Assembly (NCBI RefSeq): GCF_039655865.1
Contig: NZ_JBBYXL010000001.1
Coordinates: forward strand, 124,001 to 188,000
From: Prosthecobacter sp. SYSU 5D2
GTDB taxonomy: Bacteria > Verrucomicrobiota > Verrucomicrobiia > Verrucomicrobiales > Verrucomicrobiaceae
DNA: 64,000 nt
Direction of reading: 5' to 3'
The notes below the pieces were generated by a model. That model did no database searches. It saw only the letters and a program-made list of their open reading frames with translations, and had not been told where the DNA came from. The position numbers and the translations under genes were made by a program. Numbering within the stretch: position 1 is the stretch's first letter; the number at the start of each line of letters is the position of its first letter. Positions 5,237 to 13,944 of this stretch are shown here, one piece after another.

Positions 5237-7309
5237 TCACTTCACCAACCGCACGTTTTTAAATCCTGCACGGTCACCAAAGACCAGGAAGTTCAGCACC
5301 TTCTTTTCTTTTCCAAGCAGCGCATGTTTCCCGCTAAAGACCGTCTCATTCACCTGCACCGTCACCTCATCCCCCTTGAAGGTCACCCTCACAGGATACC
5401 AGACTGCGGATTCCAGTTCGACCGTCTTGCGGGCCAGAGGAAGCAGCGGCTCTGTTCCTGACGGGTTCTTGGTGATGCCGGCCTGGGTGGTGCTGACCTC
5501 AATGCGGAAGGACTCTTTGTTATCCCCGGCCTCGATGCGCAGCGAGTGCCGGCCGCCCTGGAACTGGATCTGGTAATCGAGGACGCCATCGGTCAGGCTG
5601 ACAGGCACACGCAGGTTCGCTCCTGAACCTTTGGCCCCTTTTTGCACGCCCCATACGGCGCTGTCTTCCGCCTTCCAGGCACCCTGGCTGGTGGTCCACG
5701 GCTTCTCAGGGAGACTAACCAATGATTCTTCAATGACCACCTCTCCCTCTGCTTTCGGCAGCACGGCCACCTTGGGCAGCACCTTTTCAATGAAGGGCGG
5801 CAGTTCTCGGCTATAGCCACCATTGCGATATTGCACCAGCAACTTGCTCAGCTTCTTCACCACCTCCGGGTTCTCGGTGCTGACATCCTTCGTCTCAGAT
5901 GGATCCTCTTTCACGTTGATAAGGCGGGGCTCGAACTCCTCGGACTTTTTCTTCTTCGTACCCTGGGCAGGGATGCCTTCGATCCATTTCCAGGGTCCCT
6001 GGCGGATGGCGAATACGCCGTCTGAGCTGTGAACGATCATGTCCGTGCGGGCTGGTTTGGCCTCCTGGCCGAGGAGCGCGGGCAGGATGTTGTAGCTGTC
6101 CTCGGCGGCCTCACCGGCGGCGGGCAGTTTTTCACCGACGATGGCGGCCGTGGTGGCCAGGAGGTCGGCCAGGCTGACCATCTCATTGCAGACGCTTCCG
6201 GCAGGGATCTTCCCCGGCCAGCGGGCGATGAAGGGCACCTTGAAGCCGCCTTCCCAGACAGTGTGCTTGCCGCCGCGCAGGATGCCATTGACCTTCAGAC
6301 CGGCTTTATACGCATCCGTCTGCGGCATGTCACGCTCGGGCTTGAATACCCCGCCATTGTCACTGGTAAAGATGATGAGCGTATTCTCCGTCTGGCCGCT
6401 TTCATCCAGCGCGGCGAGTATGCCGCCCACGCTCTTGTCCAGCTCATGGATCCAGTCGCCATACGGCCCGGCTTTGCTGGTACCGGCGGTGTCCTTATCC
6501 GGGGTCACGGGGTTATGCACGGCCACGGGGGTATAGTATAAAAAGAACGGCGTGCCCTTCTTCTGCGCCTTGATCCAGTCCGCCGATTTCTCTGTCAGAT
6601 ACGGCATCACACGCTCATTGATGCGGCGTGGTGCATCCAGTTCCAGGATGGTTGACTTCCCGCTCTCTGTATCCTCTTGGGTATAGGTCGCCTTGAAATT
6701 CGGGTTGTCGCGGTCAGGTCCGCTGATCTTCATGCCCTCCGGGATCTTGCCATTGCGCAGGCCATAGACAAACCTGTTCTCCACATAGATGCCGGTCAGG
6801 TCGCCGTGATTGGCCGGAACGCCGAAATGGTAGTCAAACCCGATGTCCAGGGGCCCTGGCGAAAGCTCCGCCTCATAATCCGTCCGCCATACGGGGGATT
6901 CATCCGCCTTGCCATAGCCCAGGTGCCACTTGCCGATCGCCGCCGTGCTATAGCCCTTTTCCTTCAGCAGCGAGGCCATGTTCAGCCGCGTCGTTTCAAT
7001 GTGCAGCGGCGAGAAAGTGCCCAGCACGCCATGCTTTGCCGAGGTCCGCCAGCAATACCGCCCCGTGAGCACCGAATACCGCGTGGGCGAGCAAACCGAG
7101 GAGGTGGTATTCGCATCCGTAAACCGCCGCCCTTCCCGCGCCAGCCGGTCCAGGTTCGGCGTCTGGATCAGCTTCCCGTCCGCCCCGTAACAGCCCACAC
7201 TGCCGTATCCAAAGTCATCCGAAAGAATGACCACGACATTAGGCCGGTCCGCTGCGAGGGCCGTGCAGCCGATGAGGCAAAAGAGAGCAAGCAAGGTTTT
7301 GGTTTTCAT
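5237..7309 (-). CDS. Exported sulfatase with C-terminal DUF1080-like domain
   Basis: This 690-residue protein belongs to the formylglycine-dependent sulfatase family (S1), which cleaves sulfate esters. Residues 1-20 are a signal peptide ending ALAA. The alkaline-phosphatase fold begins DRPNVVVILSDDFGYG, supplying the metal-binding Asp pair. The modification site C-S-P-T-R has its Cys at residue 73, the residue that sulfatase maturases convert to formylglycine. Residues about 520-690 form a second, beta-rich domain resembling DUF1080/laminin-G-like sugar-binding folds, unusual as a tail on a sulfatase. ATG 7309 is chosen because AAGGA lies six bases upstream and a clean signal peptide results. 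No maturase or other polysaccharide-degradation gene is adjacent. The substrate is probably a sulfated glycan (inference). Confidence 0.92.
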   Translation of the reverse strand: MKTKTLLALFCLIGCTALAADRPNVVVILSDDFGYGSVGCYGADGKLIQTPNLDRLAREGRRFTDANTTSSVCSPTRYSVLTGRYCWRTSAKHGVLGTFSPLHIETTRLNMASLLKEKGYSTAAIGKWHLGYGKADESPVWRTDYEAELSPGPLDIGFDYHFGVPANHGDLTGIYVENRFVYGLRNGKIPEGMKISGPDRDNPNFKATYTQEDTESGKSTILELDAPRRINERVMPYLTEKSADWIKAQKKGTPFFLYYTPVAVHNPVTPDKDTAGTSKAGPYGDWIHELDKSVGGILAALDESGQTENTLIIFTSDNGGVFKPERDMPQTDAYKAGLKVNGILRGGKHTVWEGGFKVPFIARWPGKIPAGSVCNEMVSLADLLATTAAIVGEKLPAAGEAAEDSYNILPALLGQEAKPARTDMIVHSSDGVFAIRQGPWKWIEGIPAQGTKKKKSEEFEPRLINVKEDPSETKDVSTENPEVVKKLSKLLVQYRNGGYSRELPPFIEKVLPKVAVLPKAEGEVVIEESLVSLPEKPWTTSQGAWKAEDSAVWGVQKGAKGSGANLRVPVSLTDGVLDYQIQFQGGRHSLRIEAGDNKESFRIEVSTTQAGITKNPSGTEPLLPLARKTVELESAVWYPVRVTFKGDEVTVQVNETVFSGKHALLGKEKKVLNFLVFGDRAGFKNVRLVK

Positions 7310-7625
7310 GGGGTCCTTCAAAACGCAGCCCTTCGGCATTCATAGCGTGAATTTTGCCGTTTCTGTCGGCTGCCCCTTTCCACCGGGGGCATTGCGTCAG
7401 ATTTTATCTGCCGATGCCACGGAGGATTACAGATAATCACCGGGGAAGTGGATGGATTCTGACTCTGACTCTGACTCTTTGTGCTGTCTGGGAAATGGAA
7501 CAGACTCGGCATCACCATACATTATTTCAAGATGGCGTGCAAGCGGGCGAGGACCTGCCTGTGAGAAGGTTCACTCCTGTCAAACCCCCCCGACCGATAA
7601 TTCCTGCATACTCTACCCGCAGCGC
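7310..7625. other. 316-bp intergenic stretch with nested hairpin and short tandem repeat
   Basis: No gene is supported here. A nested inverted repeat spans 7388-7418: the outer arms are GGCAT/ATGCC and the inner hairpin is CAGAT-TTT-ATCTG (7398-7410). The hexamer GACTCT is repeated in tandem three times at about 7458-7476. Nothing else could be identified. Confidence 0.4.
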
Positions 7626-8480
7626 TCATTTTCTGGCGACGATGAAGGTTTGGAGGCCGGTGGTGTCGTGATCGTATTCGACGGTGTGCCAGGGGAGTTC
7701 GGCAAAGAGGGTCTGCATGTCGGTTTGCTCCCGGTAATGGGCATGGAGCTCAAAGGCCTGCATGAGGTAATCGCTGCCGCCCTCCCGCCGGGTGGCACTG
7801 GTGTAGAAGGTGCCACCGGGGGCGAGAGAATCGAAGACATTGCGGTAGAAGGTGCGCAACTGGGCATCGTCCAGAAACTCGCCGAGGCCGGTGCTAACGA
7901 TGACGTCCTGAGGCTGCTCGGGGAAGTCGAGGTCATTGAGTGCATCGCCATGGATGAAGGCGGTTCTGGAGAGGAGTCCGGGGGCATCGGCCTCGAGGTG
8001 CATACGGGCGGCGGCGAGCACACTTTCATCCACATCCATGGCGGTGTAGTGGAGCCTTTGCGTGCGGCTATGGAGCCGGGTGACATCCCGAGGGATGCCG
8101 CAGGGGATGGCGAGCAGGCGGAGGTCGCCTGGCGTTTCCTCCAGCCTTTGTTTCAAATGCCGCGTGGACCGTACACAGCGATCGCGCATGCCCCGGGCGG
8201 CCTGCGTGTTGAGCAGCACGCGGTCCAGCAGGCGACCGATGAGCAGCCGCCCGCTTGCGCGATTTTGATAAAGATGATCGGCAAAGCGGTAGCTGCCGCT
8301 GCGCTCGATCCCCTCCCGTGCAAGATCACTGAGGCGGAGGAAGTGATAGAGGGGAATGAGGTGCCAGTGGCCGGCACGCCAAAACTTGGCGGTGAGTCTG
8401 GCGGTGCGCCGGGTGAAATTGGCGGGCCGGGGGGATTCATTCACGGCCGAGGCCGGGGAGAGCATGGAGTTGGTGTTCAT
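7626..8480 (-). CDS. Class I SAM-dependent methyltransferase of the carrier-protein operon
   Basis: This 284-residue protein is the last gene of the eight-gene operon. A SAM-binding motif I is visible as LRLLAIPCGIPRDV, followed by the acidic DVDESVLAAA after the next strand and the motif IVSTGLGEFLD, then SLAPGGTFYTSATR. Together these outline a Rossmann-fold methyltransferase. The N-terminal about 125 residues are helical and without a motif I recognise. ATG 8480 lies 44 bases inside the 3' end of the ferritin-like gene, implying translational coupling; a non-ATG start at 8507 is also possible. The substrate is unknown. By position it may methylate the carrier-bound amino acid product or its released form (inference). 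An O-, N- or C-acceptor cannot be distinguished by eye. Confidence 0.85.
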   Translation of the reverse strand: MNTNSMLSPASAVNESPRPANFTRRTARLTAKFWRAGHWHLIPLYHFLRLSDLAREGIERSGSYRFADHLYQNRASGRLLIGRLLDRVLLNTQAARGMRDRCVRSTRHLKQRLEETPGDLRLLAIPCGIPRDVTRLHSRTQRLHYTAMDVDESVLAAARMHLEADAPGLLSRTAFIHGDALNDLDFPEQPQDVIVSTGLGEFLDDAQLRTFYRNVFDSLAPGGTFYTSATRREGGSDYLMQAFELHAHYREQTDMQTLFAELPWHTVEYDHDTTGLQTFIVARK

Positions 8481-8988
8481 AAGGGATAAGTTCCTGATAG
8501 ACCGCAAGGTCGATTTCCTGATAGCGCCGGAGGCTTTCCGCTGAGCCGGGCTGGCTGCGCAGCCAGCGCGCGACCCAGCTTAGGTGATGTTTTTCATCTT
8601 CGATCATCTGGGAAAAGGCATGCCTTGCCGGGGCAGGCAGGGCGGTATTGGCCAGCTCCGCTTGGAAGCGCAAGTGCACGCGCCGTTCGAAAATTTGCGT
8701 GAAACTGAGCACCTCCATCAGCGAGGCGGGCGGGCCGCTGTGGTGAAGATAAAAGGACTGGTAACTGCGCAGGATGCGGATGTGCGGCAGTCCGCATTCA
8801 CCAATGGCATCTGCCCAGAGCTGCGCATGCGCGGCCTCCTCCGCCGCATGGCGGGTGAGCTCCTGGCAGAGAAAGGCGCCATCGGCCAGGCCGGCCATGC
8901 GGCCAAGCAGGAGTGCGCCTTCCAGCTCGCTCTGCCTGTACCAGTTCAGCCGCCAGGCGAGCTGTTTTTGGAGATCGTCGGTTTTCAT
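8437..8988 (-). CDS. Ferritin-like diiron protein (small)
   Basis: This 183-residue, all-helical protein has the four-helix diiron pattern. An E lies in SELEGALLLGR (helix 1), EEAAH in helix 2, an E in FERRVH (helix 3), and EDEKHH in helix 4, giving two E-x-x-H pairs. The fold is that of ferritin-like oxidases, hydroxylases and MiaE-type enzymes. I cannot assign a substrate. It overlaps the upstream 238-residue diiron gene by four bases (ATGA) and the downstream methyltransferase by 44, so the three are surely co-translated. Two different diiron proteins next to carrier proteins suggest oxidation of a tethered acyl or aminoacyl group (inference). It could also be a partner or rubrerythrin-like protective protein. 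Confidence 0.82.
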   Translation of the reverse strand: MKTDDLQKQLAWRLNWYRQSELEGALLLGRMAGLADGAFLCQELTRHAAEEAAHAQLWADAIGECGLPHIRILRSYQSFYLHHSGPPASLMEVLSFTQIFERRVHLRFQAELANTALPAPARHAFSQMIEDEKHHLSWVARWLRSQPGSAESLRRYQEIDLAVYQELIPYEHQLHALPGLGRE

Positions 8989-9701
8989 GCCGCCATGATC
9001 TGGTTGATTTCTCCCGACATCTTGCGGCCTGTGAGGCGCTCCATCTTGCGGTTGATGGCCAGGATGGCGGCGAAGTCGTTCTTCTTTGCCACCGGGGTCT
9101 CGGGCACCACCAGCTCGCCGATGTGGCGGAAATGCACGGCCTCATCCAGCACGTCGTCAATTTCTTCGGGATGCTTTTGCAAGCGCAGCGCGAGCAGGTC
9201 AAAACCAAACTGGCAGTGCCTCACTTCATCCTTGGCCACCAGATTTAAAATATGCGCCAGCACTGGATCCTGCGCCTGTTTGGCATCTTTGAAAAAGCTA
9301 TGCGCGGCGAAGTGCTCGCTCATCATGTAGCGCGTCAGCAGGCGGGAAGGATGGTCAAACTTCAGGTCCAGATTCCGCCGCCGGATGGCGATGATCTCCT
9401 CATCCTGAATGGGCCGGTAGCCGACCGCCTCCAGGTATTGGGCAAAGACATGGAAGTGCTTGTAGCTCTCGAAAAGCTGCACGCTGTAAATGGCGGTGCT
9501 GGTCACGCAGTCCCACATCAGGTCCAGCACACGCGGCGTGAAGATGGGGAAAAACGATTCAATGAGCGCCGAGTCCCGCACCCGCTCCAGCAGGTCCGGC
9601 TGCTGCAGGGAAAGCTCAGGCTGGATGTCGTTCCACGCGATGTCCGTATCCAGCGTCCAGCGCGTCATTTCAGAAGTGGTCAGGTAGTCTCCGTAAGTCA
9701 T
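8985..9701 (-). CDS. Ferritin-fold diiron oxygenase/desaturase-like protein
   Basis: This 238-residue helical protein has diiron-type ligands in four helices: E in LFESYKH, E/H in SEHFAAH, DEVRH, and DEAVH. This arrangement resembles acyl-ACP desaturases, AurF-type N-oxygenases and related enzymes acting on carrier-bound or free amino substrates. I cannot pick among these by eye. It sits 19 bases after the 77-residue carrier protein gene, which is the likely substrate carrier, and overlaps the next diiron gene by four bases. A role in hydroxylation, desaturation or N-oxidation of a tethered substrate is inferred from context. Confidence 0.8.
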   Translation of the reverse strand: MTYGDYLTTSEMTRWTLDTDIAWNDIQPELSLQQPDLLERVRDSALIESFFPIFTPRVLDLMWDCVTSTAIYSVQLFESYKHFHVFAQYLEAVGYRPIQDEEIIAIRRRNLDLKFDHPSRLLTRYMMSEHFAAHSFFKDAKQAQDPVLAHILNLVAKDEVRHCQFGFDLLALRLQKHPEEIDDVLDEAVHFRHIGELVVPETPVAKKNDFAAILAINRKMERLTGRKMSGEINQIMAA

Positions 9702-9720
9702 AAGGATGCAATGTTAATGG

Positions 9721-9954
9721 TTAGGCCTTCACGGCTGCGCTTGAAATATGCCGGGCCAGACTGGTCAGGCTCGCGCCCGGAGCCAGTTCCGCCGGGGTCA
9801 GCCGCACGCCGAATTCCTCATGGATGGCGCACAGCAGCTCCACGTGGTCCATGCTGTCCAGTGCCAGCTCATTCAGCGGCACATCCTCCCGTAAAAGCGG
9901 AGCCAGACGGGGCAGGTTGAGTCGCAGACGATGAAGTGTTTGTTGAGGTGTCAT
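9721..9954 (-). CDS. Acyl/aminoacyl carrier protein (77 aa)
   Basis: This is a small acidic helical protein of normal carrier-protein length. The phosphopantetheine site LALDSMDHVEL places the modified Ser at residue 34, in the usual DS-[ML] context. Helix III follows normally. It is likely the scaffold on which the operon's enzymes work, loaded either by the SerRS-like ligase or with an acyl chain. Spacing to the diiron gene is 19 bases, and to the ligase gene upstream 50 bases, the largest gap in the operon. No phosphopantetheinyl transferase is in the operon, so a housekeeping enzyme must activate it. Confidence 0.88.
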   Translation of the reverse strand: MTPQQTLHRLRLNLPRLAPLLREDVPLNELALDSMDHVELLCAIHEEFGVRLTPAELAPGASLTSLARHISSAAVKA

Positions 9955-10004
9955 GATGTTAAAAGGGGTTCATCCATTCATGCGCAATCTTGATTCAAAA
10001 AGGA

Positions 10005-10724
10005 TCACGCCTTCGGCAAACTCGATGCCCAGCGCTCCAGGCCAAAGGCCACGCAGGCGGAGTGCGCAGCCTGGCCGCCCGCAAGACGGATCTGAAACCG
10101 CTGGCCGAAGAATCCGCCATGACGGTTGATGCTGGCAATGGCCAGCCCGTCAGGCAGGCAGTATTCCATCTTCGTTTTTAGCAGCTTTTGCATCCGCGCC
10201 TTGCCCAGAGCCTCTGCCTTCGGCAGAAAGAAAGGATCGCTCGCCTCGGCCCAGTCGCCTCGGATGGCGAATTCGCCCGCCATTTGTGCGATGTCCTGCT
10301 GCATGGAGAAAAGCGATTCTTCAATCCACTCCTGCCCACCGATGAAGATCAGTTCGCGCATTTGAAACTCCACCTGGCGTCTCCCCGGCTTCAGTTCTCC
10401 AGGGATTTCGTTGCGGAAGCAATGCCCACGGGCGGCGAGCACACGTCCGCCTGCTTCCGTGAGCGTTTGGTTTTCCAGCGCAGCGTAAGCGTGATAACAG
10501 ACAGCAGGAGAGAGATCATAAGGGGTGGCTTCAAGTTGTTCTTCGGCCGCTTCCGGCTGCGCATTCGCGGCGGCCGTCATCAGCAGTTGGGGAAAGGATT
10601 CGTAGTATCCCGCACGGCGCAGGGTCACTCGCGGGATCAGCACCGGCCAGGCATGCTCCGCAGCCTCGTGGGCCAGGGACCAGGTGCGCAGACGGCCGTC
10701 AATGTGTTCAAGCTGGGCATTCAT
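10005..10724 (-). CDS. Class II aaRS-like amino acid:[carrier protein] ligase
   Basis: This 239-residue protein resembles the catalytic core of atypical (methanogen-type) seryl-tRNA synthetase without a tRNA-binding arm. Known homologues activate glycine or alanine with ATP and load it onto a phosphopantetheinyl carrier protein. Visible motifs are the motif 2 Arg in HCFRNE (residues 101-106) and motif 3 in FGLERW (227-232). The three expected zinc ligands are C76 in PAVCYHAY, E124 in QMRELIF and C224 in HSACVAF. ATG 10724 overlaps the stop of the 95-residue carrier gene as ATGA, so this is the coupled partner pair typical of the family. A start at 10739 is possible but less likely. The amino acid used cannot be read from the sequence. 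Confidence 0.88.
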   Translation of the reverse strand: MNAQLEHIDGRLRTWSLAHEAAEHAWPVLIPRVTLRRAGYYESFPQLLMTAAANAQPEAAEEQLEATPYDLSPAVCYHAYAALENQTLTEAGGRVLAARGHCFRNEIPGELKPGRRQVEFQMRELIFIGGQEWIEESLFSMQQDIAQMAGEFAIRGDWAEASDPFFLPKAEALGKARMQKLLKTKMEYCLPDGLAIASINRHGGFFGQRFQIRLAGGQAAHSACVAFGLERWASSLPKA

Positions 10725-11008
10725 AGGGAGGCAGGGCAAAAGGCTTGGGTGATGGCGGCGATGCTATGGAAGTGTTTCATGGAGACCTTTTCATCCGGCA
10801 CCGGTGCACCGGTCATTTCTTCGATCAGACCGATCACGTGAAGGATGGCCATGCTATCAATGCGGCCGTTTTCAAACAGCGGGGTCTCTGCCGAAACGGG
10901 TGTGGCATCCACGGGGGAGAGGCGCAGCGTCGGCAGCATTTCATTGACGAGATGCAGCAGAGCAGCCTCCATCTGGAGGGTATCAAGCGTGGTGGCGGGC
11001 GAGGACAT
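10721..11008 (-). CDS. Carrier protein cognate to the amino acid ligase (95 aa)
   Basis: This carrier protein has the attachment site NGRIDSMAILHVIGLIEEM, with Ser at residue 52. The Gly-Arg-Ile-Asp-Ser form and the long N-terminal helix match carrier proteins encoded beside SerRS-like ligases (family knowledge). ATG 11008 is preferred to 11044 because the longer form adds a Pro/Ser-rich leader. It overlaps the upstream SDR gene by 26 bases and the ligase start by 4, showing tight coupling. It is probably the direct acceptor of the activated amino acid. Its sequence is clearly different from the 77-residue carrier, suggesting separate jobs. Confidence 0.88.
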   Translation of the reverse strand: MSSPATTLDTLQMEAALLHLVNEMLPTLRLSPVDATPVSAETPLFENGRIDSMAILHVIGLIEEMTGAPVPDEKVSMKHFHSIAAITQAFCPASL

Positions 11009-11978
11009 GGTGGGTAACGAGGGTGGAGAGTTTCCGCCAGTCATAGGCGGGTTCGGGGTTCAGAGATTCGGCCAGCGCGGTGGCATAAACTCGGGAATGC
11101 AGCAGGCCCGGCAGAAAGGATTTTGAATCCGTGCACACACGCTGGAAAAGCAGGTCGCCGCTTTGCTGCACAGTCTGCTCAAAAAGGGCAAAGGTCTCCG
11201 CATCCACGATCTCCGGCGCGGCGATGGCACCGCTGCGCCAGCCTGCGCTGGTGCTGGCAAAATCCTGTGCCACATGCTGGATCAGCTCGCCCAGCCGGGG
11301 GCTTCTGCCGCCTGCGCACACATGGATGACGGGCGGTGCCGCATCGGCCAGGGCCGCACTCACCACCCCACGTGCCGCGTGCTCGGTGGAGATCATATCC
11401 ACCGGCGTCTCTGCCGTGCCTGGCATCATGGGGATGAGGCCCTTCCACAGCCAGAACAGCAGGTGATGCAGCGCCCCGCGCTTGCGCACGCTGCCATCCA
11501 CTTCACTGCCTGCCACGATGGACAGCCGGGCGATGCAGACCGGCAGTCCGCTGGCCAGCACCCGCTGCTCCGCCTCCCACTTGCTCTGCTCATAGGCATT
11601 CACAAAGGCACTCGGCTCAGGCAGGCTGTTTTCTGGAATCAGCCCCCCGTCCAGGCCACACACACAGGCCGTGCTGACATGCACAAAGCGTTTCAGCGCC
11701 GGACAACCGACCGCAAAGTCTAACAAGTTTTGCGTCATCTCCACATTCACTTCACGCAGAGTCTGCAGAGGCGCATTGAAGGTCGTGCTGGCCGCGCAAT
11801 GGATGATGATTTCACAGGCTCGCGCTGCATCCAGCTCATCTTCACGCAGCAGCGCCACGTGCTCCATGACGGGTGCTGCAGTCACATCCCGCACCCTGGC
11901 CATCACCTGATGCCCGGCGAGCTGCCTCGCAACTTCATGCCCAATGTTTCCAGTTAGGCCAGTGAGTAATATTTTCAT
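10983..11978 (-). CDS. Extended SDR / thioester reductase-like protein
   Basis: This 331-residue NAD(P)-binding protein starts MKILLTGLTGNIGHEVARQL, the TGxxGxxG nucleotide motif. The active-site YxxxK appears in AYEQSKWEAEQ, with a preceding VHVSTACVCG serine/threonine strand. The overall layout is that of extended SDRs, including the reductase domains that release carrier-bound thioesters as aldehydes or alcohols. In this operon it could reduce a tethered aminoacyl or ketoacyl group (inference). A plain epimerase or ketoreductase cannot be excluded. It lies two bases after the KAS III-like gene and overlaps the carrier gene. Confidence 0.82.
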   Translation of the reverse strand: MKILLTGLTGNIGHEVARQLAGHQVMARVRDVTAAPVMEHVALLREDELDAARACEIIIHCAASTTFNAPLQTLREVNVEMTQNLLDFAVGCPALKRFVHVSTACVCGLDGGLIPENSLPEPSAFVNAYEQSKWEAEQRVLASGLPVCIARLSIVAGSEVDGSVRKRGALHHLLFWLWKGLIPMMPGTAETPVDMISTEHAARGVVSAALADAAPPVIHVCAGGRSPRLGELIQHVAQDFASTSAGWRSGAIAAPEIVDAETFALFEQTVQQSGDLLFQRVCTDSKSFLPGLLHSRVYATALAESLNPEPAYDWRKLSTLVTHHVLARHHA

Positions 11979-11980
11979 GT

Positions 11981-12964
11981 TTAGATGAGATCTGTGATTT
12001 CAAGAATGATGGCCGACCAGCTCGAGCCGAAGCCATACGCAAAGAGCAGCACCCGCTGCCCCGGCCTGAGAACGCCTGTCGCCCGCGCCTGCTCCAGCAT
12101 CAAAAAGCTGTCCGCCGCGATGGTGTGGCCAAAGCGCTGCCGCGGAATAAAAAGCCGGTCCTCAGGAATGCCGCACAGCCGCAGCAGGATGGGCCAGCTT
12201 GCAGCATTCACACCCGTCGGGATCACCAGATCCACGTCCCCGGCTTTGAGGTCCGCCTTGGCCAGCACCCGGCGCACGGTCATCGCCGCAGTTGGAAAAT
12301 AGGCCGCGATGATCTCGCTCTGCCGCGTGGGCACGTCCCAATACCAGCCTTTGGAAATTTGGTGATGCGCCAGCCACCGATAGCGCAGGTTCTCACGCGA
12401 GACTACCACCGCGCAGGCCGCATCACTTACTACATTATAAAGTACCTCCCGCATGGCCCCTTGTGGAAAAGCATCCGCGCCCACGCACAGCACATGCTCC
12501 AGATCCGGCTCTGCCATCAGCAGCGCACGAGCCTGCCGAAGGGCGGAAAACATCCCTGCGCATCCCTGCTGAGCCACGCCGCTGATGAAAGCCCGCTCCA
12601 GCCCCAGCGCATCTTGCAGCCAGCTCGCCTGATAACAAAACATCCCCAGCAGTCCCGTGTCCCCCGGCTTCTCGCTCTGCCGCAGATGAGCCGAAGGCAA
12701 GGCTCCCCCACACAACAGCGCACCGATCTCCTCCGCCTTCAGTCCCGCCGCATCCAGCGCGCCCTGCCCTGCCTTCAATGCCAGCGCATGGATGTCATCA
12801 CCAATCCACGCACCGTCAAAACCGAAGGCCCGCAAGTTCTCATGCGGTGACGACACATCCAGTTCATCGAGCGGCAGGAACCTGTCCGGTAGCAGCGCCC
12901 GGTGTGACCGGATTCCCGGCAGCGCTATTAAGTCTGAGTTGGCGTGTGTCTCGTCTTGTTTCAT
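11981..12964 (-). CDS. KAS III-like (FabH-type) condensing enzyme with altered triad
   Basis: This 327-residue thiolase-fold protein is the first gene of the operon. The nucleophile is C135 in QQGCAGMFSAL. By spacing (30 residues between them, as in FabH) the usual His and Asn positions are T250 in IPTGVN and H280 in RFGHTIAADS. The triad therefore reads Cys-Thr-His rather than Cys-His-Asn. Relatives with changed triads often transfer acyl groups rather than perform decarboxylating condensation (family knowledge), so an acyltransferase or atypical condensation role is plausible. ATG 12964 is chosen; a TTG at 12991 would extend the protein by nine residues into the divergent promoter region. 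Confidence 0.85.
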   Translation of the reverse strand: MKQDETHANSDLIALPGIRSHRALLPDRFLPLDELDVSSPHENLRAFGFDGAWIGDDIHALALKAGQGALDAAGLKAEEIGALLCGGALPSAHLRQSEKPGDTGLLGMFCYQASWLQDALGLERAFISGVAQQGCAGMFSALRQARALLMAEPDLEHVLCVGADAFPQGAMREVLYNVVSDAACAVVVSRENLRYRWLAHHQISKGWYWDVPTRQSEIIAAYFPTAAMTVRRVLAKADLKAGDVDLVIPTGVNAASWPILLRLCGIPEDRLFIPRQRFGHTIAADSFLMLEQARATGVLRPGQRVLLFAYGFGSSWSAIILEITDLI

Positions 12965-13059: not shown

Positions 13060-13944
13060 GTGAACATCCACCACCTGGAACTCTTTTATTACGTGGCCAA
13101 GCACCGGGGTGTCAGCGCTGCGGCGCGGCACATTCCTTATGGCATCCAGCAGCCCGCCATCAGCGCCCAGATCATCCAGCTTGAGGACAGCCTGGGCATC
13201 ACCTTGTTTCAGCGCCGCCCGTTTGAACTGACGCCGGAAGGCCGCGAGCTTTTTACCCACATCGAGCCTTTTTTCACCGGCCTGCCCAAGCTCGCCGACA
13301 GGCTCCGGGGCGGGCGCGAGATCCGCCTGCGCATTGGTGCACCTGCTGCCATCCAGCAGAATTATCTGCCCCGCATCCTGAAGGCCATGCGCCGCCGGTT
13401 TGCCCGGCTGGAATTCAGCCTCCTCACTGGCAGCCAGAGCGAGTTCGAAGCCTGCCTCCTGGCGGATGAACTCGACATCGCCGTCACCAGCGTCTTTGGC
13501 AAACCCGCCCCCGGCCTGCGCCAGCATGAGCTTCTCTCCCTTCCGCTCGCCCTCATGGTGCCGGAAAAAAGCCGCATCAAAAGCCCCCAGGATCTCTGGA
13601 AACAGGACCGCATTGATGAACCGCTTATCTGTGTGGATTCCGCCGATGCCCTCTGCCGCTGCTTCCAGCATGAACTCCAGCGCCGCAAGATCGAATGGTT
13701 CCCTTCCCTGGAACTCGCCTCGCTGGATCTCGTGGCCGAATATGCCGCGCAGGGATTTGGGATCGGCTTGGTCCTGGACCAGCCGGATCACCGCCCTCCT
13801 CCCGGCACACGACGCCTGTCGCTGATCGATTTCCCCCGGCTCACTTACGTAGCCATGTGGCCCGGCAAGCCCACCCCGATGATCGAATCCTTTCTTCAAG
13901 GTGCACAGGGAATGGCGGTCGAACTTGGCAATCTGAAACCCTGA
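13060..13944 (+). CDS. LysR-family transcriptional regulator
   Basis: This 294-residue regulator has an N-terminal winged helix-turn-helix (residues 1-60: LELFYYVAKHRGVSAAARH, then QQPAISAQIIQLEDSLGI and LFQRRP). A periplasmic-binding-like effector domain follows from about residue 90 (LRIGAPAAIQQNYLPRIL). It starts with GTG at 13060, directly preceding the HTH helix at the normal distance. It is divergent from the eight-gene carrier-protein operon across a 95-base spacer holding a T-N11-A box, the classical arrangement for a LysR protein controlling the opposite operon. The effector is likely a pathway substrate or intermediate (inference). Confidence 0.92.
   Translation: MNIHHLELFYYVAKHRGVSAAARHIPYGIQQPAISAQIIQLEDSLGITLFQRRPFELTPEGRELFTHIEPFFTGLPKLADRLRGGREIRLRIGAPAAIQQNYLPRILKAMRRRFARLEFSLLTGSQSEFEACLLADELDIAVTSVFGKPAPGLRQHELLSLPLALMVPEKSRIKSPQDLWKQDRIDEPLICVDSADALCRCFQHELQRRKIEWFPSLELASLDLVAEYAAQGFGIGLVLDQPDHRPPPGTRRLSLIDFPRLTYVAMWPGKPTPMIESFLQGAQGMAVELGNLKP

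Follow-up and report, generated by a model that had tools for sequence, protein, structure and literature searches.

A rare eight-gene operon of Verrucomicrobiota with a SerRS-like amino acid:carrier-protein ligase, two predicted ferritin-fold proteins, and a KAS III-like protein

INTRODUCTION

Seryl-tRNA synthetase (SerRS)-like amino acid:carrier-protein ligases were reportedly described by Mocibob et al. in 2010 with Bradyrhizobium Bll0957 (PDB 3mey). The amino acids that they load are given as alanine, glycine, and serine in one review (PMC9437257). Another account (PMC9967187), citing He and Ryan 2021, outlines a route in which glycine on a carrier protein is converted by a diiron oxygenase into an aldoxime or nitronate, which is followed by O-methylation. 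The zinc ligands of the SerRS-like ligases are Cys, Glu, and Cys residues. Here, we describe an eight-gene operon at positions 7626 to 12964 of a 64,000-nucleotide stretch (the window) of the genome of Prosthecobacter sp. SYSU 5D2 (5.87 Mb, 26 contigs), in which a SerRS-like ligase stands among two carrier proteins, two proteins of ferritin-fold type, a β-ketoacyl-acyl carrier protein synthase III (KAS III)-like protein, a reductase, and a methyltransferase. The evidence supports a distinct and rare operon whose carrier-loaded amino acid chemistry would resemble that of cassettes forming nitronates, although its oxidases are different and its KAS III-like protein is of acyltransferase type.

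The chemistry predicted for the operon, apparently a variant of one known from a few antibiotics, shares with the glycine-derived nitronate pathways (O-methyl nitronate of enteromycin, denitrification) a carrier-bound amino acid, a diiron oxygenase, and a methyltransferase, and relatives of its ligase stand near AurF-type oxygenases. The operon differs from these pathways in lacking an AurF-family enzyme, in place of which it has two other ferritin-fold proteins, in adding a putative KAS III-like acyltransferase and a thioester reductase, and in having a methyltransferase type unlike that of Tistrella. The preliminary description of this DNA recognized no described natural product class with this gene set. 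A literature search likewise found no report of the exact eight-gene set, most subscription papers lying outside its reach, whereas the related logic of carrier-bound glycine, diiron oxygenase, and nitronate, followed by O-methylation (enteromycin) or denitrification, has been described. The system of the diazo-forming ferritin-like enzyme Dob3 was set aside as a candidate, its gene set being different (PMC13061610). Here, the partners of a SerRS-like ligase are few enough to be tested one by one, with no large nonribosomal peptide synthetase or polyketide synthase among them, and they suggest that oxidation by ferritin-fold proteins other than AurF is linked to the ligase family. Of further note are the two metal-type proteins, which lie outside curated families, and the changed triad of the KAS III-like enzyme, and clusters without modular enzymes may be overlooked by cluster-finding programs.

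RESULTS AND DISCUSSION

Organization and conservation of the operon

The eight genes are tightly packed on the minus strand. Every open reading frame (ORF) was confirmed, as were the junctions, for which gaps of 50 bases or less and ATGA overlaps had been claimed. From 12964 to 7626, the order is as follows.

11981 to 12964, minus strand: KAS III-like protein, 327 amino acids (aa), with an acyltransferase-type triad (Cys135-His280-Asp285) and Thr250 in place of the PHQAN His
10983 to 11978, minus strand: short-chain dehydrogenase/reductase (SDR), thioester-reductase-like, 331 aa, with Y129xxxK133 and matches to Pfam NAD_binding_4, TIGR01746, and MxaA
10721 to 11008 (alternative ATG at 11044), minus strand: carrier protein 1 (CP1), with a DSM phosphopantetheine site
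10005 to 10724, minus strand: SerRS-like amino acid:carrier-protein ligase, 239 aa, with zinc residues C76, E106, and C224
9721 to 9954, minus strand: carrier protein 2 (CP2), with a DSM site and a PP-binding match (4.4e-08)
8985 to 9701, minus strand: DI1, acyl-ACP-desaturase/R2-type ferritin-fold protein, with E48, (S79), H82, E129, E159, and H162
8437 to 8988, minus strand: DI2, ferritin-like protein, with E21, E51xxH54, E101, and E132xxH135
7626 to 8480, minus strand: class I S-adenosylmethionine-dependent methyltransferase, with matches to Methyltransf_25 and Methyltransf_20

Three junctions are gaps (2, 50, and 19 bases), and the other four are overlaps, including two of the ATGA type. 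The 2-base gap lies between the KAS stop (11981) and the SDR ATG (11978), the SDR and CP1 genes overlap, and the CP1 and ligase genes share an ATGA (10721 to 10724). CP2 follows the ligase gene after 50 bases and DI1 follows CP2 after 19, DI1 and DI2 share the second ATGA (8985 to 8988), and DI2 overlaps the methyltransferase gene by 44 bases. The preferred start codons of the KAS, ligase, and methyltransferase genes are at 12964, 10724, and 8480. For CP1, the ATG at 11008 is preferred over that at 11044 because the frame of a related locus (L013) has a stop just ahead of the matching ATG. A promoter scan of the operon found nothing.

A search for the gene set in other genomes, as had been proposed with the preliminary description, found all eight genes in identical order at four other loci (L013 to L016). 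A further locus (L017, in an Akkermansiaceae metagenome-assembled genome [MAG]) keeps the order of the seven downstream genes but only the final 45 aa of the KAS III-like protein, which is cut at the contig end, and the operon loci thus number six with that of the window. Among 387 genomes sampled evenly from the phylum, four matched the ligase, namely, the window genome and those of L013 to L015, and the DI2 profile matched the identical four. Within the order, 386 genomes gave four matches to the DI1 profile, including the L016 genome. L016 (in a Verrucomicrobiales MAG) and L017 were added by a DI1-alignment scan of an 84,980-species contig collection, which missed the three loci of the whole-genome search and is not exhaustive. 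Of the 21 same-genus genomes listed, that of the window included, it alone has DI1. At the other operon loci, DI1 shares 84 to 58% identity with the window protein and SDR 63 to 39%. Because the gene order is kept across loci and no neighbor is conserved, the operon is a real unit, and it is rare, being present in about 1% of the genomes sampled. A role in primary metabolism or stress instead of the making of a secreted metabolite would agree with the absence of transporter and resistance genes among the eight; given this rarity in the phylum and the occurrence in only the window genome among the 21 of its genus, we consider the operon not to be core metabolism and such a role highly improbable.

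The SerRS-like ligase, its carriers, and its relatives

The ligase matches PRK07080 (amino acid--[acyl-carrier-protein] ligase) at an E value of 1.2e-30, with 106.5 bits being below the equivalog cut-off of 357, and the Bradyrhizobium ligase structure 3mey at 2.2e-16. It also matches a serine--tRNA ligase model (1e-15), so that it is homologous to class II SerRS as well as to the core of amino acid:carrier-protein ligases. Its Cys/Glu/Cys residues (C76, E106, and C224) are kept in all 20 aligned ligases, including six window-type rows. Because of the PRK07080 and Bradyrhizobium structure matches and the presence of Cys/Glu/Cys, the prediction that this ligase loads a carrier protein with an amino acid is well supported. 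Glycine would be its likeliest substrate, or perhaps alanine. Both carriers flank the ligase gene and have a DSM site and a PP-binding domain, that of CP1 being slightly below the Pfam cut-off (20.1 versus 20.8 bits), and the window genome has one match to an ACPS-family transferase. The first assignments of the ligase and the two carriers are supported. In comparison with the Bradyrhizobium Bll0957-type ligases, the catalytic core is homologous, Cys/Glu/Cys is kept, and a carrier gene is likewise adjacent, whereas the window ligase belongs to its own subfamily and is shorter (239 aa versus 346 aa in the 3mey chain). The partners also differ, being acyl-CoA dehydrogenase, DUF1839, and a glycosidase in the Bll0957 type and two ferritin-fold proteins in the window.

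Relatives of the ligase were found in 94 plasmid records, of which 14 loci, picked for variety, were read. In 4 of the 14 (L031, L032, L033, and L036), an AurF-family (PF11583) diiron oxygenase lies one gene from the ligase. Three of these four have a carrier gene, which is annotated in L031 and L033 and recognized in L032 by similarity to CP1, and three (L032, L033, and L036) have a nitronate monooxygenase; L032 also has a methyltransferase and L036 a fluoroacetyl-CoA-type thioesterase. The cassettes with a nitronate monooxygenase are presumably the denitrification cassettes of He and Ryan 2021. An acyl-CoA dehydrogenase stands beside the ligase in another five loci (L034, L038, and L040 to L042), accompanied by DUF1839 and GH2 in L040 to L042, and the remaining five (L030, L035, L037, L039, and L048) have neither enzyme, L048, which lacks annotation, having been queried with AurF and with nitronate monooxygenase without a match.

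When 17 ligases are placed in a tree, those of the six operon loci cluster with the ligases of three AurF cassettes and that of S. clavuligerus (support, 97/93). The grouping is the same when L048 is added (18 ligases; 95/91), with L048 falling outside the window group. Three long rows, the Agrobacterium vitis AurF-cassette ligase among them, are absent from both trees; in the full-row tree, which gives the window clade no resolved place, the four AurF-cassette ligases and that of S. clavuligerus form one clade (99/98). The grouping of the window ligase with AurF-cassette ligases, obtained with the long rows dropped, therefore points to glycine N-oxidation chemistry of the enteromycin type.

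A different role has been suggested for another type of ligase. Iyer et al. (PMC2922099) proposed for an Agrobacterium ligase cassette a role in cell surface decoration, and in the window such a role would mean that the aminoacyl carrier supplies the amino acid that is attached to a surface sugar. One plasmid ligase locus does sit among glycosyltransferases. The eight genes, however, include no glycosyltransferase or sugar gene, nor the DUF1839 and GH2 partners of that ligase type, and they have no conserved neighbor, which makes surface decoration by this operon very unlikely.

Several ligase loci have contexts of their own. On Agrobacterium vitis F2/5 pAvF25a (L036), genes for an AurF-type oxygenase, a nitronate monooxygenase, a ligase, a fluoroacetyl-CoA-type thioesterase, and a phosphopantetheinyl transferase stand in a row (5917 to 9473), with transposase genes on both sides further out; a small ORF at 5552 to 5812 has no Pfam match, so no carrier was recognized there. 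An Apilactobacillus kunkeei plasmid (L037, 4980 to 9943) carries a very divergent ligase and a carrier between two annotated D-alanine--D-alanine ligase genes, and this ligase type occurs on plasmids of honeybee-crop lactobacilli. On Rhizobium gallicum pRgalR602b (L042, 6383 to 12236), the acyl-CoA dehydrogenase/DUF1839/GH2 ligase cassette lies near nif genes. Among 384 genomes of the class, a ligase profile matched five, the fifth being G821 (2.5e-36) with a different gene context. Its locus (L028, 5386 to 8586) has a ligase of another type, in a 407-aa frame, next to ORFs that were read from the sequence as carrier-like, GNAT-like, and MBOAT-like, and is possibly a surface-modifying cassette in the same bacterial class.

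The two ferritin-fold proteins

DI2 has a ligand set of four Glu and two His (E21, E51xxH54, E101, and E132xxH135), which is invariant in all six orthologues, and is a ferritin-like protein with a predicted diiron-type site. In DI1, E48, E78, S79, H82, E129, and E159xxH162 are invariant in all six. An alignment with a Cupriavidus relative (hhalign, 97%, 4.9e-11) places S79 on the first Glu of EQKH, with E78 adjacent. Because all six sequences have Ser at an expected metal-ligand Glu, the metal site of DI1 appears altered or shifted. Of the two ferritin-fold diiron proteins first proposed, both keep the ferritin-fold assignment, but the plain diiron label no longer suits DI1.

For both proteins, all Pfam matches are below threshold, and the ferritin-type residues were recognized in alignments. 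DI1 scores 16.3 bits with the acyl-ACP desaturase family PF03405 (FA_desaturase_2), short of the gathering score of 22.7, and S79 is at the Glu of its ExxH. Its weak PDB relatives are DesA2 (1za0, E value of 0.0012) and an R2-like oxidase. The DI1 model is poor (predicted local distance difference test [pLDDT], 51.9); a fold search with this low-confidence model gave no match at an E value of 0.001, and its top Foldseek rows are castor stearoyl-ACP desaturase (0.05). On its sequence, DI1 is a distant acyl-ACP-desaturase/R2-type protein. Membership of DI1 and DI2 in AurF was rejected, there being no PF11583 match and hhalign probabilities of only 13.6 and 0.6 with two cassette AurF proteins, and a relationship of DI1 and DI2 to each other found no support. 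No relative of DI1 was found in viral contigs and none of DI2 on plasmids. The single plasmid relative of DI1 (Cupriavidus) has no other operon gene nearby at an E value of 0.05 and lies near ORFs read as transposases. This relative, in Cupriavidus sp. KK10 (L029, 10001 to 10474), is an unannotated 264-aa protein of ferritin-fold type with the N-terminal motif of DI1 and a full EQKH site.

The KAS III-like protein

The KAS III-like protein has ACP_syn_III domains (Pfam). Compared with FabH2, it has Thr at the PHQAN His, or Asn in the case of L015, and at the Asn of GNT it has His, which is followed by Asp five residues on; the Cys is kept. C135, H280, and D285 are invariant in all five sequences that span the three positions. 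As given in PMC9573744, the triad of ChlB3 is Cys113-His296-Asp301, and H295N and C116 mutants of CerJ are dead. The same source terms ChlB3 an acyltransferase, yet says that these relatives, except CerJ, perform Claisen condensation. The KAS profile matches ChlB3 (1.4e-10), DpsC (3.1e-06), and CerJ (3.3e-04), with FabH proteins scoring better overall, and FabH is also the first match of the structure model, which is poor (pLDDT, 56.0).

A Streptomyces ketosynthase III (KS III) family protein, encoded about 6 kb from the AurF cassette of L033, has a GH....D pair in the columns of the window protein. In a PDB search, its best matches are DpsC, CerJ, and ChlB3, and the pair falls on CerJ His295 and residue 300, the latter by hand count on the alignment; the window protein is thus aligned with CerJ through this third protein. 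Where CerJ has Cys, the Streptomyces protein has Ser as in DpsC, one column off the window Cys. The PHQAN His is missing from CerJ as from the window protein.

The window protein therefore resembles CerJ and ChlB3 (and DpsC) in its KAS III family, its GHxxxxD pair, its Cys nucleophile as in CerJ, and, again as in CerJ, the lack of the PHQAN His; it differs in its low similarity to them and in standing among aminoacyl-carrier genes. A condensing KAS III of the FabH type was rejected, the Cys-His-Asn triad being absent. Because the condensing His and Asn are lost and the Cys-His-Asp triad is like that of CerJ/ChlB3, acyl transfer fits better than decarboxylative condensation, and the protein is likelier to be an acyltransferase than a condensing enzyme. 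The original family label is accordingly kept, with an acyltransferase-type triad in place of the condensing residues.

Such a triad would also suit a lipid-type pathway, in which the KAS III-like protein would load a fatty acyl group on CP2, DI1 would desaturate or hydroxylate the chain, the aminoacyl group on CP1 would serve as head group, and an N-acyl amino aldehyde or alcohol would be released and methyl capped. The two different carriers are consistent with this, as are the acyl-ACP desaturases among the DI1 matches (FA_desaturase_2, DesA2, and the Foldseek rows). Every DI1 match is weak, however, the eight genes include no acyl-CoA ligase, and the ligases that group with that of the window when long rows are dropped mostly stand by N-oxygenases. 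A lipid-type product is therefore rather unlikely.

The reductase and the methyltransferase

The SDR matches Pfam NAD_binding_4 (4.6e-30) and, below the cut-off (77.8 versus 213.35 bits), TIGR01746 (9.1e-22), and its best PDB match is the MxaA reductase domain (3.8e-19). It has TGxTGxxG and an invariant Y129xxxK133, as expected of thioester reductases, and the proposed thioester-reductase-like identity was borne out. It is like the MxaA thioester reductase domain in TGxTGxxG, YxxxK, and the PDB match and unlike it in being a stand-alone protein in an aminoacyl-carrier operon. Reductive release by this protein is plausible.

The methyltransferase is generic class I (Methyltransf_25, 9.6e-12; Methyltransf_20, 5.3e-10), in agreement with its first annotation. 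In L015, the methyltransferase ORF (11227 to 12495) is extended at its N terminus by about 140 residues that include several hydrophobic segments, an extension not seen at the other loci. Daptide methyltransferase is an N-methylating enzyme. The best NCBIfam match of the window methyltransferase is to this enzyme (6.4e-08), and a pathway of carbon oxidation could be drawn from it, in which the diiron proteins would act on a carbon of the amino acid by hydroxylation or dehydrogenation, an N-methyltransferase would act, and an N-methylated amino aldehyde or its dimer would be released. The acyl-CoA dehydrogenases beside the ligase in 5 of the 14 plasmid loci are in line with this pathway. The daptide match is far under its cut-off, however, and the ligase grouping with long rows dropped favors the AurF side, and carbon oxidation is unlikely.

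Proposed pathway

For N-oxidation of a carrier-bound amino acid, the steps might be as follows; we infer the oxidized atom, the methylated atom, and the product. The ligase would activate a small amino acid, with glycine the likeliest and alanine a lesser candidate, and load it onto one carrier, for which CP1 is the candidate whose gene adjoins and overlaps that of the ligase by ATGA. DI1 and/or DI2 would then oxidize the aminoacyl group on its carrier, with nitrogen as the likeliest site (hydroxylamine, oxime, or nitronate), a step modeled on the AurF-type enzymes that are thought to act in this way in related cassettes. The methyltransferase may cap the oxidized group (O-methyl oxime or nitronate). 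The Cys of the KAS III-like protein may move an acyl group from CoA or an ACP to CP2 or to the amino acid (amide, ester, or thioester) with no decarboxylative condensation, and the thioester reductase would free an aldehyde or alcohol, giving a small, probably reactive metabolite. The outline given earlier, in which an amino acid is tethered, oxidized, methylated, and released or joined to an acyl group, is mostly sound; what changes is that the KAS III-like protein is of acyltransferase type and that DI1 has a substituted metal ligand.

Several findings weigh against N-oxidation followed by O-methylation. Neither DI1 nor DI2 is AurF by PF11583 or by profile comparison, and the substituted ligand of DI1 could mean altered diiron chemistry or none. 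The eight genes include no nitronate monooxygenase (Pfam, NCBIfam). The Pfam type of the methyltransferase differs from that of the Tistrella one (Methyltransf_2), and its best NCBIfam match is the N-methylating type discussed above. Once the long rows are included (20 or 21 ligases), the trees do not resolve the placement of the window clade, and the plasmid ligase closest by identity (S. clavuligerus, L030) and the close NBC_01237 ligase have no AurF gene nearby.

On balance, we tentatively favor, at somewhat less than an even chance, an N-oxidized, perhaps O-methylated, aminoacyl thioester that is formed by a non-AurF diiron pair and then transferred or reduced off. A fuller version remains doubtful: two ferritin-fold enzymes that are not AurF, and of which one has a changed metal site, would make an N-oxidized, O-methylated unit (oxime ether or O-methyl nitronate), and the acyltransferase-type KAS III-like protein and thioester reductase would turn it into a reactive small aldehyde or a conjugate, which would be a new biosynthetic class, so far in Verrucomicrobiota alone.

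Genomic neighborhood

Upstream of the operon lies one further feature that had been described with it.

13060 to 13944, plus strand: divergent LysR-type regulator, probably accessory

The regulator is present where it was first placed and adjoins the operon in L013 too, that is, in two of the five loci where the place is visible, L017 being cut before it. The stretches of L014, L015, and L016 gave no LysR match. Its membership in the unit was rejected on this distribution, and it is probably outside the unit.

A Pfam search of ten flanking ORFs of L013 to L016 found one family in two loci, Aminotran_1_2 (L014 and L016). A comparison of the ORFs within 7 kb of five operons gave five pairs with 22 to 35% identity, none of them common to all. 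Three pairs are among sulfatase-type ORFs (window, L013, and L016), one is of PQQ-type ORFs (window and L013), both names being read from the sequence, and one is of aminotransferases (L014 and L016). The L015 operon shares no neighbor and is flanked by an ORF read as pyruvate dehydrogenase E2-like and by phosphoglucomutase. Because no neighbor is conserved, the eight genes are taken as self-contained.

The window operon is nearer to the L016 operon, from a different family, than to the L013 operon, from its own family, and this suggests that the operon may have been transferred. The GC content of the operon is close to that of its flanks in the window, L013, L014, and L015 but not in L016 (0.596 versus 0.646). 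Downstream of the operon, three tandem copies of CTGACT (7459 to 7476) lie inside the 286-base gap between the methyltransferase gene and a sulfatase-like gene.

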